DNA from: Actinomycetota bacterium
GTDB lineage: Bacteria; Actinomycetota; Actinomycetes; Nanopelagicales; Nanopelagicaceae
DNA length: 64,000 bases
Assembly (NCBI GenBank): GCA_027728065.1
Contig: JAQBVO010000003.1
Span: 26,410 to 90,409, forward strand
Direction of reading: 5' to 3'
Shown one piece after another: positions 3,993-60,687 of this stretch (the stretch's first letter is position 1; each line of letters starts with the position of its first letter). The notes below the pieces were generated by a model. The model worked only from the letters and a program-made list of their open reading frames with translations, made no database searches and was not told the origin of the DNA. A program made the translations under genes and the position numbers.

Positions 3993-4544
3993 TTATACGT
4001 ACATGTGCTTAGCAAGCACGGCGATAAATGGGAGGTTGCGATATTTTTCATCAAAGTCGAGACCATACCCAACAACAAAATCTGGTGGGATTTCAAAGCC
4101 AACATATTTAACATCGACCATAACTTTGGCTGCATCTGGCTTACGAAGAATGGATAGTACCTCGACGCTGGCCGCTCCACGCGATTGAAGATTTGCTATA
4201 AGCCACAAAAGTGTTAAACCAGAATCAACGATATCTTCAACGATTAAAACATTTCGGCGTGTAATGTCGCGATCTAAATCTTTAAGAATTCGAACTACGC
4301 CACTTGATTTTGTGCCTGAGCCATAGGATGAAACAGCCATCCAGTCCATCTCTACGTGACGCGCTAGTGCACGTGAGAGATCGGCCATCGCCATCACTGC
4401 GCCCTTAAGTACTCCAATTAAAAGCAGGTCTTTGCCTTCGTAATCCTTTTCAATTCGTAGAGCGAGCTCTTTAATCTTTGCTTGCAGATCTTCTTCACTC
4501 ACGACTACGCGCTCTATATCTTTTTCAACTCCAGCTAAATCCAC
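3993..4544 (-). CDS. hpt: hypoxanthine phosphoribosyltransferase
   Basis: VLIVEDIVDSGLTL PRPP motif; ftsH-hpt-tilS synteny. Confidence 0.96.
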   Translation of the reverse strand: MDLAGVEKDIERVVVSEEDLQAKIKELALRIEKDYEGKDLLLIGVLKGAVMAMADLSRALARHVEMDWMAVSSYGSGTKSSGVVRILKDLDRDITRRNVLIVEDIVDSGLTLLWLIANLQSRGAASVEVLSILRKPDAAKVMVDVKYVGFEIPPDFVVGYGLDFDEKYRNLPFIAVLAKHMYV

Positions 4545-7609: not shown

Positions 7610-8514
7610 TATTTTTCACCAGTCATTTCAAAAAAAGTTTCTTCAAGGTTTGGAAGCTGTGGCGTTAACTGCGAAAGAGTTATCCCTGCATCAAATGCGG
7701 CACGGTTAAATTCAAGAGCCCATTCAGCTGGACCTTCAACATGCACGGCGCCATCTCTAATTACTGCTCGGTGACCAGCTCTTTGCGCTATCGCTAGTAA
7801 CGCGCCAAGATCGCTCTCATGTGCGCCCTTAGCGATGATTACTGGCTGCTGATCGAGCATTAAATCACTCATCTTGCCGGTAAAGACAACTTCGCCCTTG
7901 CGCAACATTACTAAATAATCGCTGATGAGTTCGAGTTCAGATAAGAGGTGTGATGAGACAAAGACGGAGGTGCCTTCATCTGCTAGCGCGCGCAAAAGTG
8001 AACGAACCTCTTGGATTCCCTCGGGATCTAAACCATTTGTAGGTTCGTCCAGCATCAGCAGTTTTGGATTAGGCAGTAAGGCGGCGGCGATCCCCAAGCG
8101 TTGCTTCATTCCAAGTGAGTAGGTCTTGTACTTTGATTTCGCGCGATCACCTAGACCTACTTGATCGAGTAAATACTGAACACGATCAGTTGAAAACCCG
8201 CCAAGATTTGCTAAGTATTTTAGATTCTCACTACCGCTTAATGCTGGATAGAAAGCTGGTCCTTCAATCATCGCCCCTACACGTGGCAGATATTTCTCGG
8301 GGTGCTTAATTGACTCACCCAAGATCTCTCCCGTGCCACCAGTGGGTGTAATTAAACCGAGCAACATGCGCATCGTGGTTGTCTTACCCGAACCGTTAGG
8401 TCCAACAAAGCCACAAATCGTGCCTAGTGGGACTTCAAATGTTGCATGAGATACTGCCATGCGCCCACCGTACTTCTTACTTAAATCACTAACGGAGATA
8501 GCGGTATTAGACAT
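7609..8514 (-). CDS. ABC transporter ATP-binding protein
   Basis: Walker A GPNGSGKTT, signature YSLGMKQRLGIA, Walker B LLMLDEP. Confidence 0.95.
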   Translation of the reverse strand: MSNTAISVSDLSKKYGGRMAVSHATFEVPLGTICGFVGPNGSGKTTTMRMLLGLITPTGGTGEILGESIKHPEKYLPRVGAMIEGPAFYPALSGSENLKYLANLGGFSTDRVQYLLDQVGLGDRAKSKYKTYSLGMKQRLGIAAALLPNPKLLMLDEPTNGLDPEGIQEVRSLLRALADEGTSVFVSSHLLSELELISDYLVMLRKGEVVFTGKMSDLMLDQQPVIIAKGAHESDLGALLAIAQRAGHRAVIRDGAVHVEGPAEWALEFNRAAFDAGITLSQLTPQLPNLEETFFEMTGEK

Positions 8515-8523
8515 AGTTATAAC

Positions 8524-9393
8524 CTACACCGCTAACTGGGCAACTACCAGTACAACCGATAGCAGGCTCAGGTAAGTAATCGACCACTGAAAAATCTTGC
8601 CAGCGCTCTTGGCATAATCAGGTGAACTCTCTTTAAGTCCAATCAGTTCACGGGCAAAGATCAAACCGAGCACAATGGTTATTAGAAGTGACCACGTTGG
8701 CAACTGCGCCGAGAGTATTAACCAGATAGATGATGCAATCATTAAAATAGTGTGAGACCACATCTGTCGATGTACCTGAGATTTAGGCGCTACAACTGGA
8801 AGCATTGGGATACCAGCTGCTGAATAGTCATCTTTGTATTTAATTGCAAGTGCCCAGAAATGTGGAGGTGTCCAGAAAAAGATAACCATAAAAAACGCCA
8901 ATGCAGTTAAGGAGAGTGAATTAGTCACTGCTGCCCAGCCGATAAAAACCGGCATGCACCCTGCTATTCCACCCCATACGATATTTTGAGATGTACGTTG
9001 CTTTAGCCCTATCGTATAAACAAATACATAAAATGCGATAGCAATAAAGGTTAAGAACGTTGCTAACGGTGTTGTATAGAACCAAAAAATAATCAGAGAT
9101 AATGCGCCGATAATCGTTGCAAAGAGCGTTGCCTTCGTTTTGCTTATAACACCGGTAATAATCGGGCGTTTGGCAGTGCGCGCCATTAACTTATCGCTCT
9201 CACTTTCGATCACCATGTTGAATGCGTTGGCACTTCCTGCAGCTAATGTTCCGGCAAGAATCGTTGTGGCCACGAGTGAAAATGTGGGTAGGCCTTTGTC
9301 GGCTAAGACCATGGCGGGCAGTGTGGAAACTAAGAGTAGTTCGACAACCCGTAGCTTCATCAAATCTAAGTACCCACCTATGGTTCTCTTCAC
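8524..9393 (-). CDS. ctaB: protoheme IX farnesyltransferase (heme O synthase)
   Basis: UbiA-type prenyltransferase with NAFNMVIESESDKLMARTAKRP motif. Confidence 0.93.
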   Translation of the reverse strand: MKRTIGGYLDLMKLRVVELLLVSTLPAMVLADKGLPTFSLVATTILAGTLAAGSANAFNMVIESESDKLMARTAKRPIITGVISKTKATLFATIIGALSLIIFWFYTTPLATFLTFIAIAFYVFVYTIGLKQRTSQNIVWGGIAGCMPVFIGWAAVTNSLSLTALAFFMVIFFWTPPHFWALAIKYKDDYSAAGIPMLPVVAPKSQVHRQMWSHTILMIASSIWLILSAQLPTWSLLITIVLGLIFARELIGLKESSPDYAKSAGKIFQWSITYLSLLSVVLVVAQLAV

Positions 9394-9508
9394 GCCCCTA
9401 GATTACTTGCCAACTTGGTATTGGGTTTACCGAGATTTCTACCTGTGCAGGTAGCTCTCAATATATTAAAGAGTTTTTCATCACCTCTGCCCACATTAGA
9501 GTGGGCCA

Positions 9509-10579
9509 ATGCGCTCCATAATCTTTCTCGCCCTAAGCTTGCTTTCAACGGCCCTGCTGCCGGCACAGGCTCAGCCCCTGACCAGCGATACAAAGATGAG
9601 TTTAGTTAAAACTATTACTGGCGATATTTCACCAAAATCGGTGCGCTCTTCGGGTAATGGTTTAGTGAGTGCACATAACATGATGTACAAGCACAGCGTC
9701 ACAATCTATGACGCTAATACCTTCGACTTAATCAGAACAATCTCTGATTCTGTCCAACTTTCTAGCTTTGGACATTCGAAATCTACTTCAATCTTTAAAG
9801 GCGCACCGGTTGAAGGCGCGTATTCGCCAGATGGCAAGTACTTATATGTTACGAATTATTCGATGTAAGGCAAAGGATATAACCGTGAAGGCCATGATAC
9901 TTGTTCTCCGGCTTCAAAGTTCGATAAGAGCTTTCTTTACCGGATTGATTTAGGTAGTTACGAGATCGATGCAGTCTATCCAGTTGGCTCAGTTCCAAAA
10001 GTTGTCGAAGTAACACCGGATAACAAATATATCCTTGTCTCAAACTGGTGCACATATGATCTCAATGTGATCTCGGTTGAAACTCAAAGAACTGTAAAGA
10101 TTGTAAAAATCGGTAGGTACCCTCGTGGAATTGCTGTCAGCGGGGATAGCAAGACGGCTTATGTTGCTCAGATGGGTGGAAGTCGAATTCACGTTGTAAA
10201 TTTAGAGGATTTCTCCATCACACACATCCCGATCGGAGTGACTCCCCGTGCAATAGTTATCTCTCCGGATAACACGAGAATGTATGTAACACTCAATCTC
10301 TCTGGCAAAGTCACCGCATGGGATTTAGTAGCCAATAAGAGCCTCGGTAACGTTACGACGGGTAAAGCGGCACGCTCCTTAGCTATCTCTGATGATGGCA
10401 GTGCTCTATTTGTCGTTAATTTTTCAAGCAATACCGTTACAAAACTGCGTACCAGTGATTTAAAGACGGTTCAAACAATAAAGGTCTGTAATGAACCGAT
10501 TGGTATTACCTTTGATACACCAACACAGCGCACATGGGTAGCTTGTTATGGTGGATCAATTAAAGTCTTTGATAACTAG
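9509..10579 (+). pseudogene. secreted YVTN-type beta-propeller protein interrupted by an in-frame TAA (9866-9868)
   Basis: ORFs 9509-9868 and 10067-10579 share a frame; the frame stays open after the TAA (GKGYNREGHDTCSPASKFDKSFLYRIDLGSYEIDAVYPVGSVPKVVEVTPDNKYILVSNWCTYDLNVIS...). Confidence 0.85.
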
Positions 10580-11811: not shown

Positions 11812-12459
11812 ATGTCCACACCAACGACCCCAGGCATTATTGGAGCCGGTGAGTTTTTTCCAGTTGTCGGTGTAGGCCCACATGAAAAACCATGGCCAGA
11901 AGGTGCTCAATACGACCATGAATTATTACTCCATGGTGACCGTCGAAATGTCTTGGATCATTATCGCTACTGGAGTATTGAGGCGATAGTTGCCGATTTA
12001 GATAACAAGCGCCACAAACTACATATTGCGATTGAGAACTGGCAACATGATTTAAATATTGGCTCAATTGTCCGCACAGCCAATGCATTTAATGTCGCCG
12101 GCGTTCATATCGTTGGAAAGCGTGACTGGAACAAGCGTGGTGCAATGGTTACAGATAGATATCTAACGGTTTATCACCACCCAACAGTTCAAGATTTTTC
12201 ACTTTGGTGTAAAGAAAATCATCTGCCAATCATTGGTATCGATAACGTCCCAAGCTCCAAACAGTTAGAGTCTGCGCAATTGCCCGAAAGTTGCGTTCTA
12301 TTGTTTGGCCAAGAGGGTGCAGGTATGTCGAATGAGGCACTTGCTGCCTGCGAAGTTTTATATGAGATCAATCAATATGGTTCGACGCGTTCTATGAACG
12401 CTTCGGCAGCTGGTGCGATCGCCATGTATCACTGGGCGCTACAACACATACTTCGCTAA
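11812..12459 (+). CDS. TrmH/SpoU family RNA methyltransferase
   Basis: NIGSIVRTANAF, LLFGQEGAGMS, SMNASAAGAIAMY motifs. Confidence 0.93.
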   Translation: MSTPTTPGIIGAGEFFPVVGVGPHEKPWPEGAQYDHELLLHGDRRNVLDHYRYWSIEAIVADLDNKRHKLHIAIENWQHDLNIGSIVRTANAFNVAGVHIVGKRDWNKRGAMVTDRYLTVYHHPTVQDFSLWCKENHLPIIGIDNVPSSKQLESAQLPESCVLLFGQEGAGMSNEALAACEVLYEINQYGSTRSMNASAAGAIAMYHWALQHILR

Positions 12460-14100: not shown

Positions 14101-15258
14101 ATGCCTCTGCAAGATCGTCTTAGCGCCGATGAGTGGCGGCGCATGGCCTTGATGTTTGGCTTCATCGCCTTCCTGCATATCAGCGGCACCGTATTAATGT
14201 GGCGAGCCACAACTGGAGATTATGTCTTGGCCGATGGCACCCTATTTGGCTGGGGAACTGCAATCCTTGCATACACTCTCGGTGCACGTCACGCCTTCGA
14301 TGCCGACCACATCAGCGCAATCGATAACACCACACGGAAATTGATGTCGGAGGGACAGCGCCCTCTTGCGGTCGGGTTCTTTTTCGCTCTTGGCCACTCC
14401 TCTGTCGTATTTGCTCTAGCGATGTTGCTGAACTTTGGAATTAAGGCATTAGGAACTCAATTAAAAGACGACGATTCAACTTTGCATCGTTACACCGGAC
14501 TCATTGGCATGACCGTCAGCGGTACTTTCTTAATGATCATCGCAATTTTAAACCTCATCGTTTTAGTTTCCATAGTCAGCGTCTTTCTTAAGATGCGTCA
14601 AGGTGCATATAACGACGAAGAGCTTGAGAAGCATTTAAATTCCCGTGGCTTATTAATGCGCTTTTTTGGACCAATAGCTCGTCGAATTGATAAGTCATGG
14701 AAGATGTACCCATTAGGTATTTTATTCGGTCTAGGTTTTGATACTGCAACTGAAATCGGTTTACTTGTCCTTGCAGGAACTACAGTGATAGCAGGTCTGC
14801 CTTGGTGGGCAGTAATCTCGCTTCCACTATTTTTTGCTGCTGGAATGAGTTTGCTAGACACTATCGATGGTTCTTTTATGAACTTTGCCTACGGCTGGGC
14901 CTTTTCAAAACCGGTTCGTAAGGTCTATTACAACATCATCATCACAGGGTTATCAGTTGCAGTTGCCTTGTATGTAGGTGGGTTAGAGCTCTGCCAGGTC
15001 CTAGCCGAGCAGCTTAATTTGTCAGGTGGTTTCTGGAATTACGCCCTTGCTTTCAATCTAAATAGCGCTGGCTACTTCATAGTTGCATCTTTCGTTGTGG
15101 TGTGGGCAGTTGCCTTATTACTTTGGAGATTTGGAAAAATTGAAGAGCGCTGGCATAACAAAGCTCATGCCGCACAGTTAGCGCGAGGTGAAGATTCAAA
15201 TCACACAGCCGCTGGAATTGGACTTGGCCCTATCAAGGATGGATTTAAGATCGATTAA
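14101..15258 (+). CDS. HoxN/NixA (NiCoT) family nickel/cobalt transporter
   Basis: GARHAFDADHISAIDNTTRKLM signature, LGFDTATEIGLL motif; ORF track opens at TTG 14050 but ATG 14101 is more plausible. Confidence 0.94.
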   Translation: MPLQDRLSADEWRRMALMFGFIAFLHISGTVLMWRATTGDYVLADGTLFGWGTAILAYTLGARHAFDADHISAIDNTTRKLMSEGQRPLAVGFFFALGHSSVVFALAMLLNFGIKALGTQLKDDDSTLHRYTGLIGMTVSGTFLMIIAILNLIVLVSIVSVFLKMRQGAYNDEELEKHLNSRGLLMRFFGPIARRIDKSWKMYPLGILFGLGFDTATEIGLLVLAGTTVIAGLPWWAVISLPLFFAAGMSLLDTIDGSFMNFAYGWAFSKPVRKVYYNIIITGLSVAVALYVGGLELCQVLAEQLNLSGGFWNYALAFNLNSAGYFIVASFVVVWAVALLLWRFGKIEERWHNKAHAAQLARGEDSNHTAAGIGLGPIKDGFKID

Positions 15259-15343
15259 TCAGTATTTTGTAAGTGGTAATAAGTAGAGATAATCCACGGT
15301 AGAATTACCCCGTTGGTGCAACCGCATCAATGAACTTCTCCTA

Positions 15344-15434
15344 AGTGCTGCGCAATGCAGCACTACATGCGAGTCTTATCTTCGCCCTAGCCGCCATATG
15401 CGCGAGCTATACCCGAGACGCGCTTGTCGTCTCG
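15344..15434 (+). promoter_or_regulatory. structured 5' leader of the DEAD-box helicase gene: two perfect hairpins
   Basis: AGTGCTGC-GCAAT-GCAGCACT (15344-15364) and CGAGACG-CGCTTGT-CGTCTCG (15414-15434), second hairpin 16 nt before ATG 15451. Confidence 0.6.
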
Positions 15435-19999: not shown

Positions 20000-20815
20000 T
20001 TAATTCGCCGATTCTAGGCTTTGAACGTTGCGCCAACGCGACATTAACCGCTCGTACCCTTGTCCTGCAACCATTCCATCGGCGGCTGCTAGACCGCTCA
20101 ATGAGCGCGCTACATCCTCAATCGATGTATCGGCTATTAATCCATCTTCACCATTATCTCGAAGTGATTTATCTAGATACGTTGCAAGGCCGCCGTAATC
20201 TAGTTCGACGAAGGATTGTGGGTGAAACATTTCAAGCCATGAGATTAAGTTTTCTAAATCCTGTTCTACCGGCCCTTGGCCAAATGCACCGACTACTGTT
20301 TCGTGTGCAGCTTGTGCACGTGATTTTGCTAGAGAAATAGTTGTACGGGCGATTGTAAATAAACCATATGCATCCTTACCCCGCTGACGATCTTGCGGCT
20401 GGAAAAGTAAGAACCATCGTGGAGGGATTACCCACGTCTCGTTGAGAATATGCGGAACCTTATCTTCTAGTAAATCTACACCAGCGGTTATTACATCTTC
20501 CATAGCCGGTGTTATAAAGAAAGGGATCACTGTGCTCGGTAGTGAGTCTTTAAAGTTATCGAGTGCAGCCCAGCAACGTGTCGCCGTCGCCCATGGCGAT
20601 ATGTATCGCTCGCCTTCAACCTCAAGAATATGAACACCATCTGGTCGGCCTGCTGGGGATTCCAGAAAAACTAAACGGCGAAGCGCTAAGGTCTCTTCGA
20701 ATATATAACTCGCCCCATCTATATCAATCGACTGCCAACGCAGGCGATCGGCGGGTTCAAATGCTGAAAGTGGTTCGTAGATACGAAGAGATGCAACGTA
20801 AGGAGTTGGTCTCAC
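20000..20815 (-). CDS. conserved hypothetical protein (actinobacterial)
   Basis: 271 aa ORF, GTG start overlapping the DUF3073 stop (GTGA). Confidence 0.75.
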   Translation of the reverse strand: MRPTPYVASLRIYEPLSAFEPADRLRWQSIDIDGASYIFEETLALRRLVFLESPAGRPDGVHILEVEGERYISPWATATRCWAALDNFKDSLPSTVIPFFITPAMEDVITAGVDLLEDKVPHILNETWVIPPRWFLLFQPQDRQRGKDAYGLFTIARTTISLAKSRAQAAHETVVGAFGQGPVEQDLENLISWLEMFHPQSFVELDYGGLATYLDKSLRDNGEDGLIADTSIEDVARSLSGLAAADGMVAGQGYERLMSRWRNVQSLESAN

Positions 20816-20988
20816 GCACGTGGGATATAATTGCCCTCAACGAAGGGATCGTCATCATCTTGATTTTTTGCTGTATCAACTTCGCCATGGAGCTCTTTTG
20901 TTAAACGATCGAAATCCATATCTTGTGCGTTGTACTTTAAATCCCGTGCAACTTTTGTCTGCTTTGCTTTTGTTCGGCCGCGACCCAT
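20812..20988 (-). CDS. DUF3073 small protein (absent from ORF track)
   Basis: 58 aa: MGRGRTKAKQTKVARDLKYNAQDMDFDRLTKELHGEVDTAKNQDDDDPFVEGNYIPRA; located after purM as in other actinobacteria. Confidence 0.92.
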   Translation of the reverse strand: MGRGRTKAKQTKVARDLKYNAQDMDFDRLTKELHGEVDTAKNQDDDDPFVEGNYIPRA

Positions 20989-21030
20989 AGTGCGACCTCC
21001 TCACCTGTGTGTTTTCGTCAGAGCCGTAGA

Positions 21031-21471
21031 TTACCGCCCTCTGTAGGCGCCTTCCAAAGTAGAGCGTGGCCCTGAGCCAGTCGTCGTTGATATAACGCCA
21101 GCTACCCAGGCTTTCATCCCACGTGCGGCCAGGGATGCCAGGGCTAGATCGGCTGAATCCGGGGCCAGAACTGCGACCATGCCGATTCCAGCGTTCCACG
21201 TGCGCTCCATATCGGCCTGCGGTACGCCACCAATCCTGGCCATAAACTCCATCTCAACTGGAAGCGACCATGTTGAGCGATCATAGATGGCGGAGAGATT
21301 CTCTGGAATCACTCGCGCCGTATTTTCGGCGATGCCTCCACCTGTGATGTGAGAGAAGCCGCGCAGTGCAGTCGGCATGGATTTAATTAAAGCCAAGCAA
21401 TCTAAAGTGTAGATCTCTGTGGGTTTGAGAAATACCTCACCTGATGTTTTTCCATATTCACTTACACCCAG
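21031..21471 (-). pseudogene. purM: phosphoribosylformylglycinamidine cyclo-ligase, C-terminal fragment only (~146 aa)
   Basis: LGVSEYGKTSGEVFLKPTEIYTLDCLALIKSMPTALRGFSHITGGGIAENTARVIP...; N-terminal ~200 aa absent; upstream sequence is purC. Confidence 0.88.
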
Positions 21472-21617
21472 TCGTATGCAGATATTCGATCAGAGGCAAC
21501 TAACAAAATCTGATTCTTCTCATTTGTATATAGGTCTCGTACTTTTCCCGTGCGCAGATGTGTCCACCCAGGTATCGCAGGCGCTGGCGGTGGGCCAGTT
21601 AGGCCAAAGCCACTCAC
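21462..21617 (-). pseudogene. purC: SAICAR synthetase, N-terminal fragment only (51 aa)
   Basis: VSGFGLTGPPPAPAIPGWTHLRTGKVRDLYTNEKNQILLVASDRISAYDWV then TAA; GTG start overlaps purB stop; GKVRD and DRISAYDWV are PurC hallmarks. Confidence 0.88.
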
Positions 21618-23035
21618 CGAATAGAGCCGGGTTTGTACTGCACTGCTGCAGGGTGCGCGGATGTAATCGCGTCGATGCGACTGACAACTCGAGCAACTTG
21701 TTGGCGAGCATCGCCAGTAAATTCAAGTGGTGTACTTATCAATAGATCTAAAGCCGCTCGATCTAAAGGTAGGCGCGCATCATTAGATAAATCCTCAAGA
21801 AGAGAGTTGCTCTTACCCTCACGCATTTCAAGGGCGGCCTTGATCGCATGCTCTTTAATAATTTCATGTGCACTCTCGCGTCCAACGCCAGCTTTGACCG
21901 CGGCCATCAAGATCTTTGTGGTGGCTAAAAACGGCAGATAGCGCTCTAATTCTGCGGCGATAACGGCGGGGAAAGCGCCGAACTCATCGAGTACCGTCAA
22001 TATCGTTTCAAGTAGCCCATCCATGGCAAAAAATGCATCCGGGATCGCCACTCGACGAACAACGCTGCATGAAACATCGCCCTCGTTCCATTGATCTCCG
22101 GCTAATTCGCTGACCATCGATGCATATCCACGCAGGAGAACAGCTAAACCATTTACTCGTTCGCATGAGCGTGTATTCATCTTATGCGGCATCGCACTGC
22201 TGCCGACTTGCCCCGCTTTAAAGCCCTCGGTTACAAGCTCTGCACCAGCCATTAAGCGAATCGATGTTGCCAGCGATGATGGAGCAGATGCTAACTGCAC
22301 AAGTGTTGTGAGAACATCATAATCAAATGAACGTGGGTAGATCTGACCTGTCGAGTCCATGACTCGATCAAAGCCCAAGGCTTTTGCGATAGCAGATTCA
22401 AAGTTTGAATGTGCATCGGATGAACCCAATAAGTCAATTGAATCCTGCGCGGTGCCTACTGCGCCTTTAATCCCACGCATTGGATAGCGCTCTTGTAATG
22501 CAATTAAGCGCTCGTATGCAAACAGTAACTCTTCAGCTATAGATGCAAAACGTTTCCCAAGTGTTGTGATCTGTGCCGGTACATTATGTGAGCGGCCAGT
22601 GATAGGTTGATTGGAATACTGCATTGCACGCTCTGCTAACCGTGCCAGCAGAGTAATCACTTTTTCGCTTATAAGATCAAGTCCGTTGCAAATTTGTTGT
22701 GCCTCGATATTTTCAGTTAGGTCGCGGCTAGTCATCGCGGCATGAATTGATTCGTGACCGGCCAGAGCATTAAACTCTTCGATACGTGCCTTAACATCAT
22801 GACGAATCTTTTTTTCACGGACATCGATTGATGCAAGATCCACTCGTGCAATTACATTCTCATAGGCTGTAATTACAGCCGGAGAGATTGCGTGAGCGTG
22901 GGCCGATTGTGCCCGCATAACAGCGATCCATAATCTTCGCTCTGCAATAATCTTTGCCTCAGGCGAAAAGATTTCGCGCATCGGCGCAGTTGCATATCTA
23001 TTGGCGATAAGGCTCACTGATGGATTATCGGCCAT
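21614..23035 (-). CDS. purB: adenylosuccinate lyase
   Basis: GSSAMPHKMNTRSCERVNGL signature. Confidence 0.96.
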   Translation of the reverse strand: MADNPSVSLIANRYATAPMREIFSPEAKIIAERRLWIAVMRAQSAHAHAISPAVITAYENVIARVDLASIDVREKKIRHDVKARIEEFNALAGHESIHAAMTSRDLTENIEAQQICNGLDLISEKVITLLARLAERAMQYSNQPITGRSHNVPAQITTLGKRFASIAEELLFAYERLIALQERYPMRGIKGAVGTAQDSIDLLGSSDAHSNFESAIAKALGFDRVMDSTGQIYPRSFDYDVLTTLVQLASAPSSLATSIRLMAGAELVTEGFKAGQVGSSAMPHKMNTRSCERVNGLAVLLRGYASMVSELAGDQWNEGDVSCSVVRRVAIPDAFFAMDGLLETILTVLDEFGAFPAVIAAELERYLPFLATTKILMAAVKAGVGRESAHEIIKEHAIKAALEMREGKSNSLLEDLSNDARLPLDRAALDLLISTPLEFTGDARQQVARVVSRIDAITSAHPAAVQYKPGSIR

Positions 23036-24280
23036 TTAATTGCCCTTCTCTGCCACTGAGGCGTTCAGTGCAATGTCGCTGCGAAAAAAGGAGCCGGGTA
23101 GCGAGATTTGACTAATGGCACGGTAGGCGCGATCTCTAGCCTCGGTCAGATCAGATCCAACGCCGGTCACGGTTAAAACACGGCCTCCGGTTGCTATAAG
23201 GCCTTGGCCGTTCTGTGATGTGCCTGCGTGAAAGATTTGTACATTCTTAATCACTGGCAACTGGGAGATACGGCCACCACTCTTTGGGGCAGTTGGATAT
23301 CCCTCAGCAGCTAAAACAACAGCGACTGCCGATTCATCTCGCCACTCCAATACAGTGTCGGCAAGATCTGCAGTAGCAGCCTTATACAGAAGTGATGCCA
23401 GTGGAGTTTTGAGTAATGGAATTAGCACTTGCGTTTCTGGATCTCCAAAGCGCACATTGAACTCTATGACGCGCGTTCCATGATCGGTTAGTGCTAAGCC
23501 TGCATAGAGTAAACCGATAAAGGGTGTTCCACGCGCATTCATTTCGGCGATGATTGGTGCAAGGACTTGCGTATAGGTGTCGTCGATAATATCCGAGGGT
23601 GCCCAGGAAAGTGGTGAGTATGCACCCATTCCACCAGTATTAGGACCATCATCATTATTGCCGACACGTTTGAAATCCTGTACTGGTTGCATCGCAAGAA
23701 TTGAAGTTCCATCACTAATGCCAAAGAGTGAGATCTCTGGTCCATTTAAATACTCTTCTATAACGACACGTTTACATGTCAGTGCGTGATTTATTGCCTC
23801 TTGCCGATCGTGCGTAACGACGACGCCTTTACCACCAGCTAATCCATCATCTTTAACAACATATGGTGGGCCAAAAGTATCGAACGCCTTTTCATACTGT
23901 GCAAGCGTTGTACATGTAAAGCTATGCGCAGTCGGTACACCCGCATCCGACATCACCTCTTTAGCAAAAGTCTTTGAACCCTCTAACGCTGCCGCCGCCT
24001 TTGATGGACCAAATACAGCGATTTTCAATCGGCGTAGATCATCGGCAACTCCATTAACTAGTGGAATCTCTGGACCGATAACTACTAATTCTGCGGCGAT
24101 TTCCTGTGCCAGGGCAACGATTTGCGCGTTACTTGTGATGTCGATTCGATGGCATTGGGCAAACTGGGCGATACCTGGATTGCCGGGTGCAACATGTAGT
24201 TCGGTACAGGCGGGATCTGCATGTAGAGCTAACCCAAGGGCGTGTTCGCGACCGCCGCTTCCAATTAGGAGGATTTTCAT
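23036..24280 (-). CDS. purD: phosphoribosylamine--glycine ligase
   Basis: MKILLIGSGGREHALG, VIEFNVRFGDPETQ. Confidence 0.97.
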   Translation of the reverse strand: MKILLIGSGGREHALGLALHADPACTELHVAPGNPGIAQFAQCHRIDITSNAQIVALAQEIAAELVVIGPEIPLVNGVADDLRRLKIAVFGPSKAAAALEGSKTFAKEVMSDAGVPTAHSFTCTTLAQYEKAFDTFGPPYVVKDDGLAGGKGVVVTHDRQEAINHALTCKRVVIEEYLNGPEISLFGISDGTSILAMQPVQDFKRVGNNDDGPNTGGMGAYSPLSWAPSDIIDDTYTQVLAPIIAEMNARGTPFIGLLYAGLALTDHGTRVIEFNVRFGDPETQVLIPLLKTPLASLLYKAATADLADTVLEWRDESAVAVVLAAEGYPTAPKSGGRISQLPVIKNVQIFHAGTSQNGQGLIATGGRVLTVTGVGSDLTEARDRAYRAISQISLPGSFFRSDIALNASVAEKGN

Positions 24281-24282
24281 TG

Positions 24283-26618
<2,336 letters not shown>

Positions 26619-52080: not shown

Positions 52081-53541
<1,461 letters not shown>

Positions 53542-58672: not shown

Positions 58673-60687
58673 TTAGCCTACTTTTTTGATGCGGCCATCT
58701 ACTACGGGTGTCTGCGTAACTTTTCCAGCGGCCATATCTGCCTTGAGCGCATCTACAAATATATCAAGTAACGCGCCTTTGACCTTGGACTCTGCAGGTG
58801 AGAAGACATTTGCATATCCATCCCCACCATAAATTAGGAAGTCAACAGTTGTAAGTGTGTACTGCTTATCATCTTTAGCAATAGCGGTTCCATCGTTCTT
58901 AGTAACCGTAACTATCCGGCTTCCAATTGCTTTAGATGCATCAAATGAGAACTTGAATCCTGAAATCTGTGGGAAACGTCCATCTCCTGGATAGCTACCA
59001 CCAACACCGTTTTCAAGTGCCTTCCAAAGATTTGCCCCAGTTATAACTGTCGTTGCGACCTGGTTACCAAATGGAAAGACGGTGAAAGCATCACCGAGAG
59101 TTACATCTAATGGACCAGCACCGGTGCGAACAATTGCTGTATTTGCAGGGAGATAAGTCTTTGCTGGGAATGTATCGCGAATACCGCCACCATTTTGAAT
59201 CGCAAAGTCAGTCTTATGCTTTACCCGCATCAAATCTGCCATGTAGTTACCCATTGGTGTCTCACCTGAGCGCTCTACCGCTGGTGATCCTCCACGTGGG
59301 AATACTCCTGAAACTTGACCGATTTTTACATCGAGTTTTGCGGTGAGTTGATCCTTATACTTTTTAACCATTGCAGCAGCTGTTGCATCCTGAGTTGTCA
59401 CAGTGCTAACAACGCCTGTATTTATATTGGCATTTGCAGCCTTTAATACATGCTGGATCGACTGGCCTACTACTTTGCTATTTTGTATACAGATTTGCGT
59501 GCGTGTGTACTCGACACCCGAGTTGCGAACCTGCCCAATAACAGTGGGTGCAACGCGTATGTTTCCTGGAATTACAGATGCAAATGTCTGGTGGCTATGA
59601 CCACCGTAGATTGCAGCCGCTCCTTTAATCTGTGAGGCCAGAGAGTTAAGTTGGCCTATTGCTACCCCATTGGCATTTTCTAACCAACCTTGATGAAGAA
59701 TCGCTATGACAATCTCTGCACCTGCTGCTTTAGCTTCAACGATAGCGGCATTAACCCCTTCAGCTCCTGGATTGATTGATATCGTCTTTTTCGCACCAGA
59801 TGCATCTTTGTAATCAAGGTTCCCTGGGAATACTTGTTCAATTGTCTCTGATGTATTTGCACCGACGACACCAACTCTAACCCCACCTCTATCAATGATT
59901 GCATATCGCTTGGCAGATTTTGAGCCAGATTTCAAAGCTGCCAAATCCTCTGGATTGTAGTTTGAAACTACCCACTGAAAATCAGATAGACCAATCATCT
60001 TATTAACGTGTTCTAAGTTTCTATCGTGCTCGTGGTTACCAAATACAGATACATCCAATTTTGTAAGATTTAATGTCTCAATAGTCGGAATCTCTTCAAA
60101 CTCTGTAGAAATCGGTGGCGCAGCGCCAATATTATCTCCTGCTGAAACTGCAATCGTTACTTTGTTAGCTAAACGATCTGCCGCCCAATTGCTAGTAAGT
60201 AGCGCTGCCCAAAGGAGCCACCGACTTCGATTGCGCCATGAAGATCGCTGTGTTGTAAGACTTGAACCGCTTTGTTACTAGATGAAGCCACAGTAGCAAG
60301 TTGTGCGGCGGTGTAACTCTTGCTAGATGCCGCTGGCTTTGAAAAACCATATGCGTTAACGGCTTGGACAACTGGTGTGCCTGCAGGTTGACCCGCAACA
60401 ACTGGCATCGTCACAATTGAGTTACGGTTTACAGGAACAAATATCGGGCATGAACCAGCACCTGCTGAAACAACATATCCAGTTACACCTGGATCAACAT
60501 CTGCGCCAGGAGTCCACTTCACAACAACGCCGCGAACGCCTAGGTAGGAGGTGACTTTAGTTGGAGGGTTCGGTAGCGAGTATGTCGCTGCCTGCGCTGT
60601 GGGTACTATTAATGAAACTAGTAGCGATGTAGCCAGAGCTAAAGAGCCCCAGCTAAAGATTTTTCTAGATGAGAGGGTTTTATTCAT
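58673..60687 (-). pseudogene. secreted UshA-like 5'-nucleotidase/metallophosphatase, split by a single-nucleotide frameshift near 60208
   Basis: ORF 60169-60687 carries signal peptide, FnIII-like region and VLQHSDLHGAIEVGGSFG; other frame continues AALLTSNWAADRLANKVTIAVSAGDNIGAAPPISTEFEEIPTIETLNLTKLDVSVFGNHEHD. Confidence 0.88.

Follow-up and report, generated by a model that had tools for sequence, protein, structure and literature searches.

Downstream of an intact purB gene, in a stretch of 64,000 nt (positions 26410-90409 of contig C32 of the genome under study, G000; hereafter the window), the minus strand carries codons 1-51 of purC fused to codons 209-352 of purM, with a TAA at the join. 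The 45 contigs of the genome add up to 1.397 Mb, at a completeness of 99.06% and a contamination of 0.18%. The best matches of its purB include IMCC19121, IMCC25003 and Planktophila MAGs, the top match being at 87%, which places the genome with 'Candidatus Planktophila' (freshwater acI). Members of Planktophila, one of the most abundant bacterial genera of fresh water, are difficult to culture.

The purC frame opens at 21617, where it overlaps the purB stop, and continues for 51 codons to ...SAYDWV before reaching the TAA (21462-21464), past which the minus strand reads on in another frame as the C-terminus of PurM up to the natural stop at 21031 (Table 1). The 51 residues of PurC match PRK13961 and TIGR00081 at profile positions 8/9-46, and the PurM fragment matches TIGR00878 at positions 208-330 of 332. 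In terms of the NCBIfam and Pfam profiles, the PurC fragment is without all that lies beyond position ~32 of 233 and the PurM fragment without the entire AIRS domain and the start of AIRS_C; judging from these lost domains, neither would be able to act as a working enzyme. The join sits mid-contig, with no N. An earlier note on this DNA had described both fragments with their frames and coordinates as well as the TAA, and all of these are correct by sequence and by profile matches.

Table 1. Features of the purine locus and of salvage genes in the window.
Feature	Position	Strand	Remarks
orf271	20000..20815	-	conserved flank
DUF3073 gene	20812..20988	-	conserved gene downstream of purM
purM remnant	21031..21464	-	~codons 209-352 of 352, in frame to natural stop; N-terminal AIRS domain gone
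purC remnant	21462..21617	-	codons 1-51 of ~293; terminating TAA created by junction
deletion junction (purC GTG / purM TAAGTG...)	21464..21466		placement within 0-2 bp; ~6.3 kb absent in comparison with G106 and G057
junction 28-mer		-	GCATACGACTGGGTGTAAGTGAATATGG
purB (adenylosuccinate lyase)	21614..23035	-	intact
purD	23036..24280	-	intact
purA	24283..25566	-	intact
hpt (hypoxanthine phosphoribosyltransferase)	3993..4544	-	intact
guaB1, GMP reductase-type	52081..53529	-	intact

In IMCC19121 (G106) the gene order is purA-purD-purB-purC-purS-purQ-purL-SCP_3-purF-purM-DUF3073-orf271-BldC, SCP_3 being assigned by Pfam. The same purC-to-purM block is carried by G057, and its genes are also present in G119 and G116, split across two contigs in each. 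In the relatives, a DNA query covering 20812-21640 is split at its position 175/176 into a purC and a purM part, which lie ~6.3 kb apart on joined contigs, and in every relative with a readable, intact block these ~6.3 kb contain the rest of purC, purS, purQ, purL, SCP_3, purF and the start of purM. The coordinates of G106 and G057 set the stretch missing in G000 at ~6.28-6.29 kb. The synteny of these two genomes confirms the guess of the earlier note that the missing block holds purS, purQ, purL and purF; besides the pur genes one SCP_3 gene was lost with the block, which that note had overlooked. This gene (9351-9719 of the IMCC19121 locus) overlaps the end of purL. A plasmid search returned a single short match only, in a DUF3073 gene.

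When the proteins of G106 and G057 are compared with G000 over ~60 kb, clear truncation is confined to purC and purM; the protein at 59120-59866 of G106 also matches in part, and the frame of G000 on which this match lies is shorter but complete. Since no other gene is clearly truncated over this distance, the junction is confirmed as a real sequence feature, far beyond chance. The assembly is not generally broken, the other compared genes being essentially full length. General assembly dropouts in the region were also considered and set aside: the genes absent nearby are whole genes with clean borders and look like ordinary accessory content. At 15258-15424 of the window, G106 and G057 carry ~6 kb (a second COX1, COX3, CtaG, EamA and others) that are absent in G000; the main COX1 is present elsewhere in this genome, and many genomes of the genus have no second copy. 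At 8514-8524 G000 is without a gene for a Cys/Met PLP enzyme and at 12456-12459 without one for an MFS transporter, both of which G106 and G057 carry; the borders are again clean.

We assign a probability of about 0.72 to one recent event in this Planktophila genome, an illegitimate deletion of ~6.3 kb whose ends share 0-2 bp of homology. Such an event would have taken four fifths of purC (its 3' part) and codons 1-208 of purM, and the whole of purS, purQ, purL, SCP_3 and purF, so that six purine-synthesis genes (purC, purS, purQ, purL, purF and purM) are hit. The sequence at the breakpoints differs from what had been proposed, namely a 7-bp microhomology, CTGGGTG, fitting both genes. In fact, CTGGG comes from purC only; the purM side in relatives reads mostly A-H-V, and the L-G of the supposed L-G-V reading is not seen before VSEYG in the aligned PurM of relatives, which have mostly A-H. 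Against the left side of the G000 junction, 51 purM copies have 2 bp (21 copies), 1 bp (18) or 0 bp (12) in common. A microhomology-mediated deletion, in which several bases are common to both breakpoints, does not agree with these 0-2 bp, and the join looks like the product of end joining with little or no homology. So short a homology also makes an overlap-based misjoin unlikely: collapse by the assembler at a short repeat, the artefact suggested earlier, has nothing in its favour beyond being possible in general and is highly improbable, given that the 7-bp repeat does not exist and that 0-2 bp are far below the usual assembly overlaps. The main route to assembler collapse is thereby removed, but not chimeric molecules or a rare variant, and the main uncertainty is whether the deletion is fixed or belongs to a minority or chimeric molecule.

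The rest of the genome was searched for the missing functions. Across the 99%-complete G000, no copy of purC, purF, purL, purM or SCP_3 was found outside the locus. AIRS_C and SAICAR_synt have one match each, which are the PurM and the PurC fragment, respectively; the purF model has one, scoring 100.8 bits against a cut-off of 350 over profile positions 1-217, in a 614-aa frame that is probably GlmS; and a protein search for SCP_3 gave no match in G000. The genome search that the earlier note had recommended therefore finds neither a full-length purC or purM nor any purL or purF elsewhere in G000. The adjacent purN and purH, as well as the adjacent purK and purE, are intact and above curated cut-offs, as are hpt and guaB1. 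The salvage set named beforehand (hpt, purA, purB, guaB1) is indeed intact, and so is purD, the one de novo gene that had been listed as such; the intact purN, purH, purK and purE had been missed.

With purC, purF, purL and purM absent or truncated, G000 has no complete copy of these non-replaceable de novo genes, and it retains hpt, purA, purB and guaB1 together with one gene of the Xan_ur_permease (xanthine/uracil-permease) family as a putative uptake route. On this gene content, G000 is predicted to be a purine auxotroph, in agreement with the note. IMP cannot be made de novo without PurF, PurL/Q/S, PurM and PurC, so the cell would depend on imported purine bases or nucleosides, which would enter salvage through Hpt, PurA/PurB and GuaB1; purB is also needed for the formation of AMP from IMP, while purD serves the de novo pathway only. 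The single Xan_ur_permease gene is no more than prototrophs have, which counts against this reading, and a special purine transporter in genomes without the block was rejected as a candidate, permease counts not separating them from the others. Other lineages without the block have neither purD nor purE, which suggests that the leftover purD, purN, purK and purE of G000 would decay in time. PurH may be kept for its second role, the recycling of AICAR that arises in histidine synthesis.

Within the PurM remnant, 0 of ~62 near-invariant columns are changed. Its 144 codons have a mean dN of 0.140 against 16 relatives, whose own range is 0.099-0.154, and the dN values of the purC remnant (0.087) and of purD (0.115) are both ordinary, in a test that, with dS near saturation, shows only strong relaxation over long times. 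A decaying PurM remnant had been considered on account of its seemingly low BLAST identity to IMCC19121 (75%), and the conserved columns and dN show no acceleration. Because the remnants carry no excess amino-acid change, the deletion appears to be young compared with species divergence, or not fixed. Among the options that the earlier note had drawn from the intact purD, a recent event agrees with the undecayed remnants, and an assembly collapse of the repeat type does not agree with the 0-2 bp of homology.

The same undecayed remnants are also what a chimera arising at read level or during amplification would leave, or a minority deletion variant chosen by the assembler, most cells of the species keeping the block. 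This explanation, which we regard as unlikely though deserving of attention, would also fit the intact state of purD and of all the unlinked de novo genes and for the missing SCP_3, kept by other block-less genomes, and a stray 6.3-kb contig could have dropped out of the bin. It has against it that the contig runs through the join, that none of the block genes looked for (purC, purF, purL, purM and SCP_3) is found elsewhere in a bin 99% complete and 0.18% contaminated, and that other members of the genus have lost this block naturally, more than once.

This recurrence, which the earlier note had not seen, emerged from DNA searches of the genus. Nine genomes (G050, G055, G162, G016, G121, G020, G027, G046 and G058) have a purA-purB-SCP_3-DUF3073 locus, from which purD, purC, purS, purQ, purL, purF and purM are all absent, indicating that the state is viable in Planktophila. 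The unlinked purE is absent in 9/9 and purH is missing in G050, G055 and G058 and present in G046, in genomes that are 65-92% complete, where the absence of one unlinked gene from one genome is weak evidence and the contiguous empty sites are direct. That G046 retains purH without purE and the pur block is what one would expect if the enzyme serves to recycle AICAR formed in histidine synthesis. The same genome has a purF-like frame (G046:C176:53-778, profile 1-248) that is interrupted by three TGA and one TAA and may be a pseudogene in decay.

On the purB tree the nine genomes require 5 changes, at least 3 of them forced by well-supported branches, a single clade for the nine is rejected (AU p=0.000125) and G027 is sister to the block-bearing G140 (support 100/99); the purA tree requires 3 changes, only 1 of them forced, and an appearance of independent losses on such trees could also arise if the locus had recombined between lineages. 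In G000, as in the nine, purC, purS, purQ, purL, purF and purM are gone between purB and DUF3073. However, the nine have neither purD, purE nor remnants and retain SCP_3 (9/9), whereas G000 has the remnants, purD and the unlinked genes and has lost SCP_3, so that its deletion looks less clean than theirs; a clean block loss, with purD and purE lost and SCP_3 kept, does not describe it. An old inherited loss, one event common to all block-less Planktophila, would explain why the same genes are concerned, but we consider it scarcely credible in view of these differences, of the grouping of G000 with block-bearing genomes on both the purB and the purA tree, where the nine are not its closest kin, and of the purB tree, on which even the nine fail to group as one clade. 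Planktophila seems instead to have lost the de novo synthesis of purines repeatedly, G000 being a separate and very recent case. It is reasonably probable that purine synthesis is patchy in this genus and has been discarded repeatedly, by at least three independent gene-precise excisions sparing purA, purB and SCP_3, with G000 just past the first step.

The G000 deletion adds a new case to a kind of event that is already known. De novo nucleotide synthesis is described as complete in four acI strains (PMC5301498), and UMP auxotrophy is predicted for acI-C, with purine/pyrimidine permeases listed (PMC5574706); reduced nucleotide synthesis is reported for small freshwater genomes in general (PMC12495000). 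The auxotrophies of streamlined bacterioplankton and acI, of the Black Queen type, likewise concern free-living, small-genome freshwater actinobacteria dependent on neighbours; however, those described involve vitamins, amino acids, heme or, in acI-C, UMP, and in G000 purines (PMC5301498; PMC5574706; PMC7527133; PMC12381374). Purine exchange in the ocean likewise suggests that dissolved purines are a common resource of plankton, but that study deals with purine use and release in marine SAR11, SAR116 and Prochlorococcus, and the word 'auxotroph' is absent from its main text (PMC11698098). No report of purine auxotrophy in Planktophila or Nanopelagic* was found in the open-access literature; subscription papers and supplements may hold one.

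The cells of G000 probably must obtain purines from their neighbours. If some lineages cannot make purines, purine-free media would fail them, and their dependence on a supply of purines is open to test. Furthermore, with a broken block and intact unlinked genes, G000 represents an early state to be set against the finished losses, making the order of pathway decay directly observable. If purine synthesis has indeed been discarded repeatedly in Planktophila, purine exchange would be a structuring dependency of freshwater plankton.
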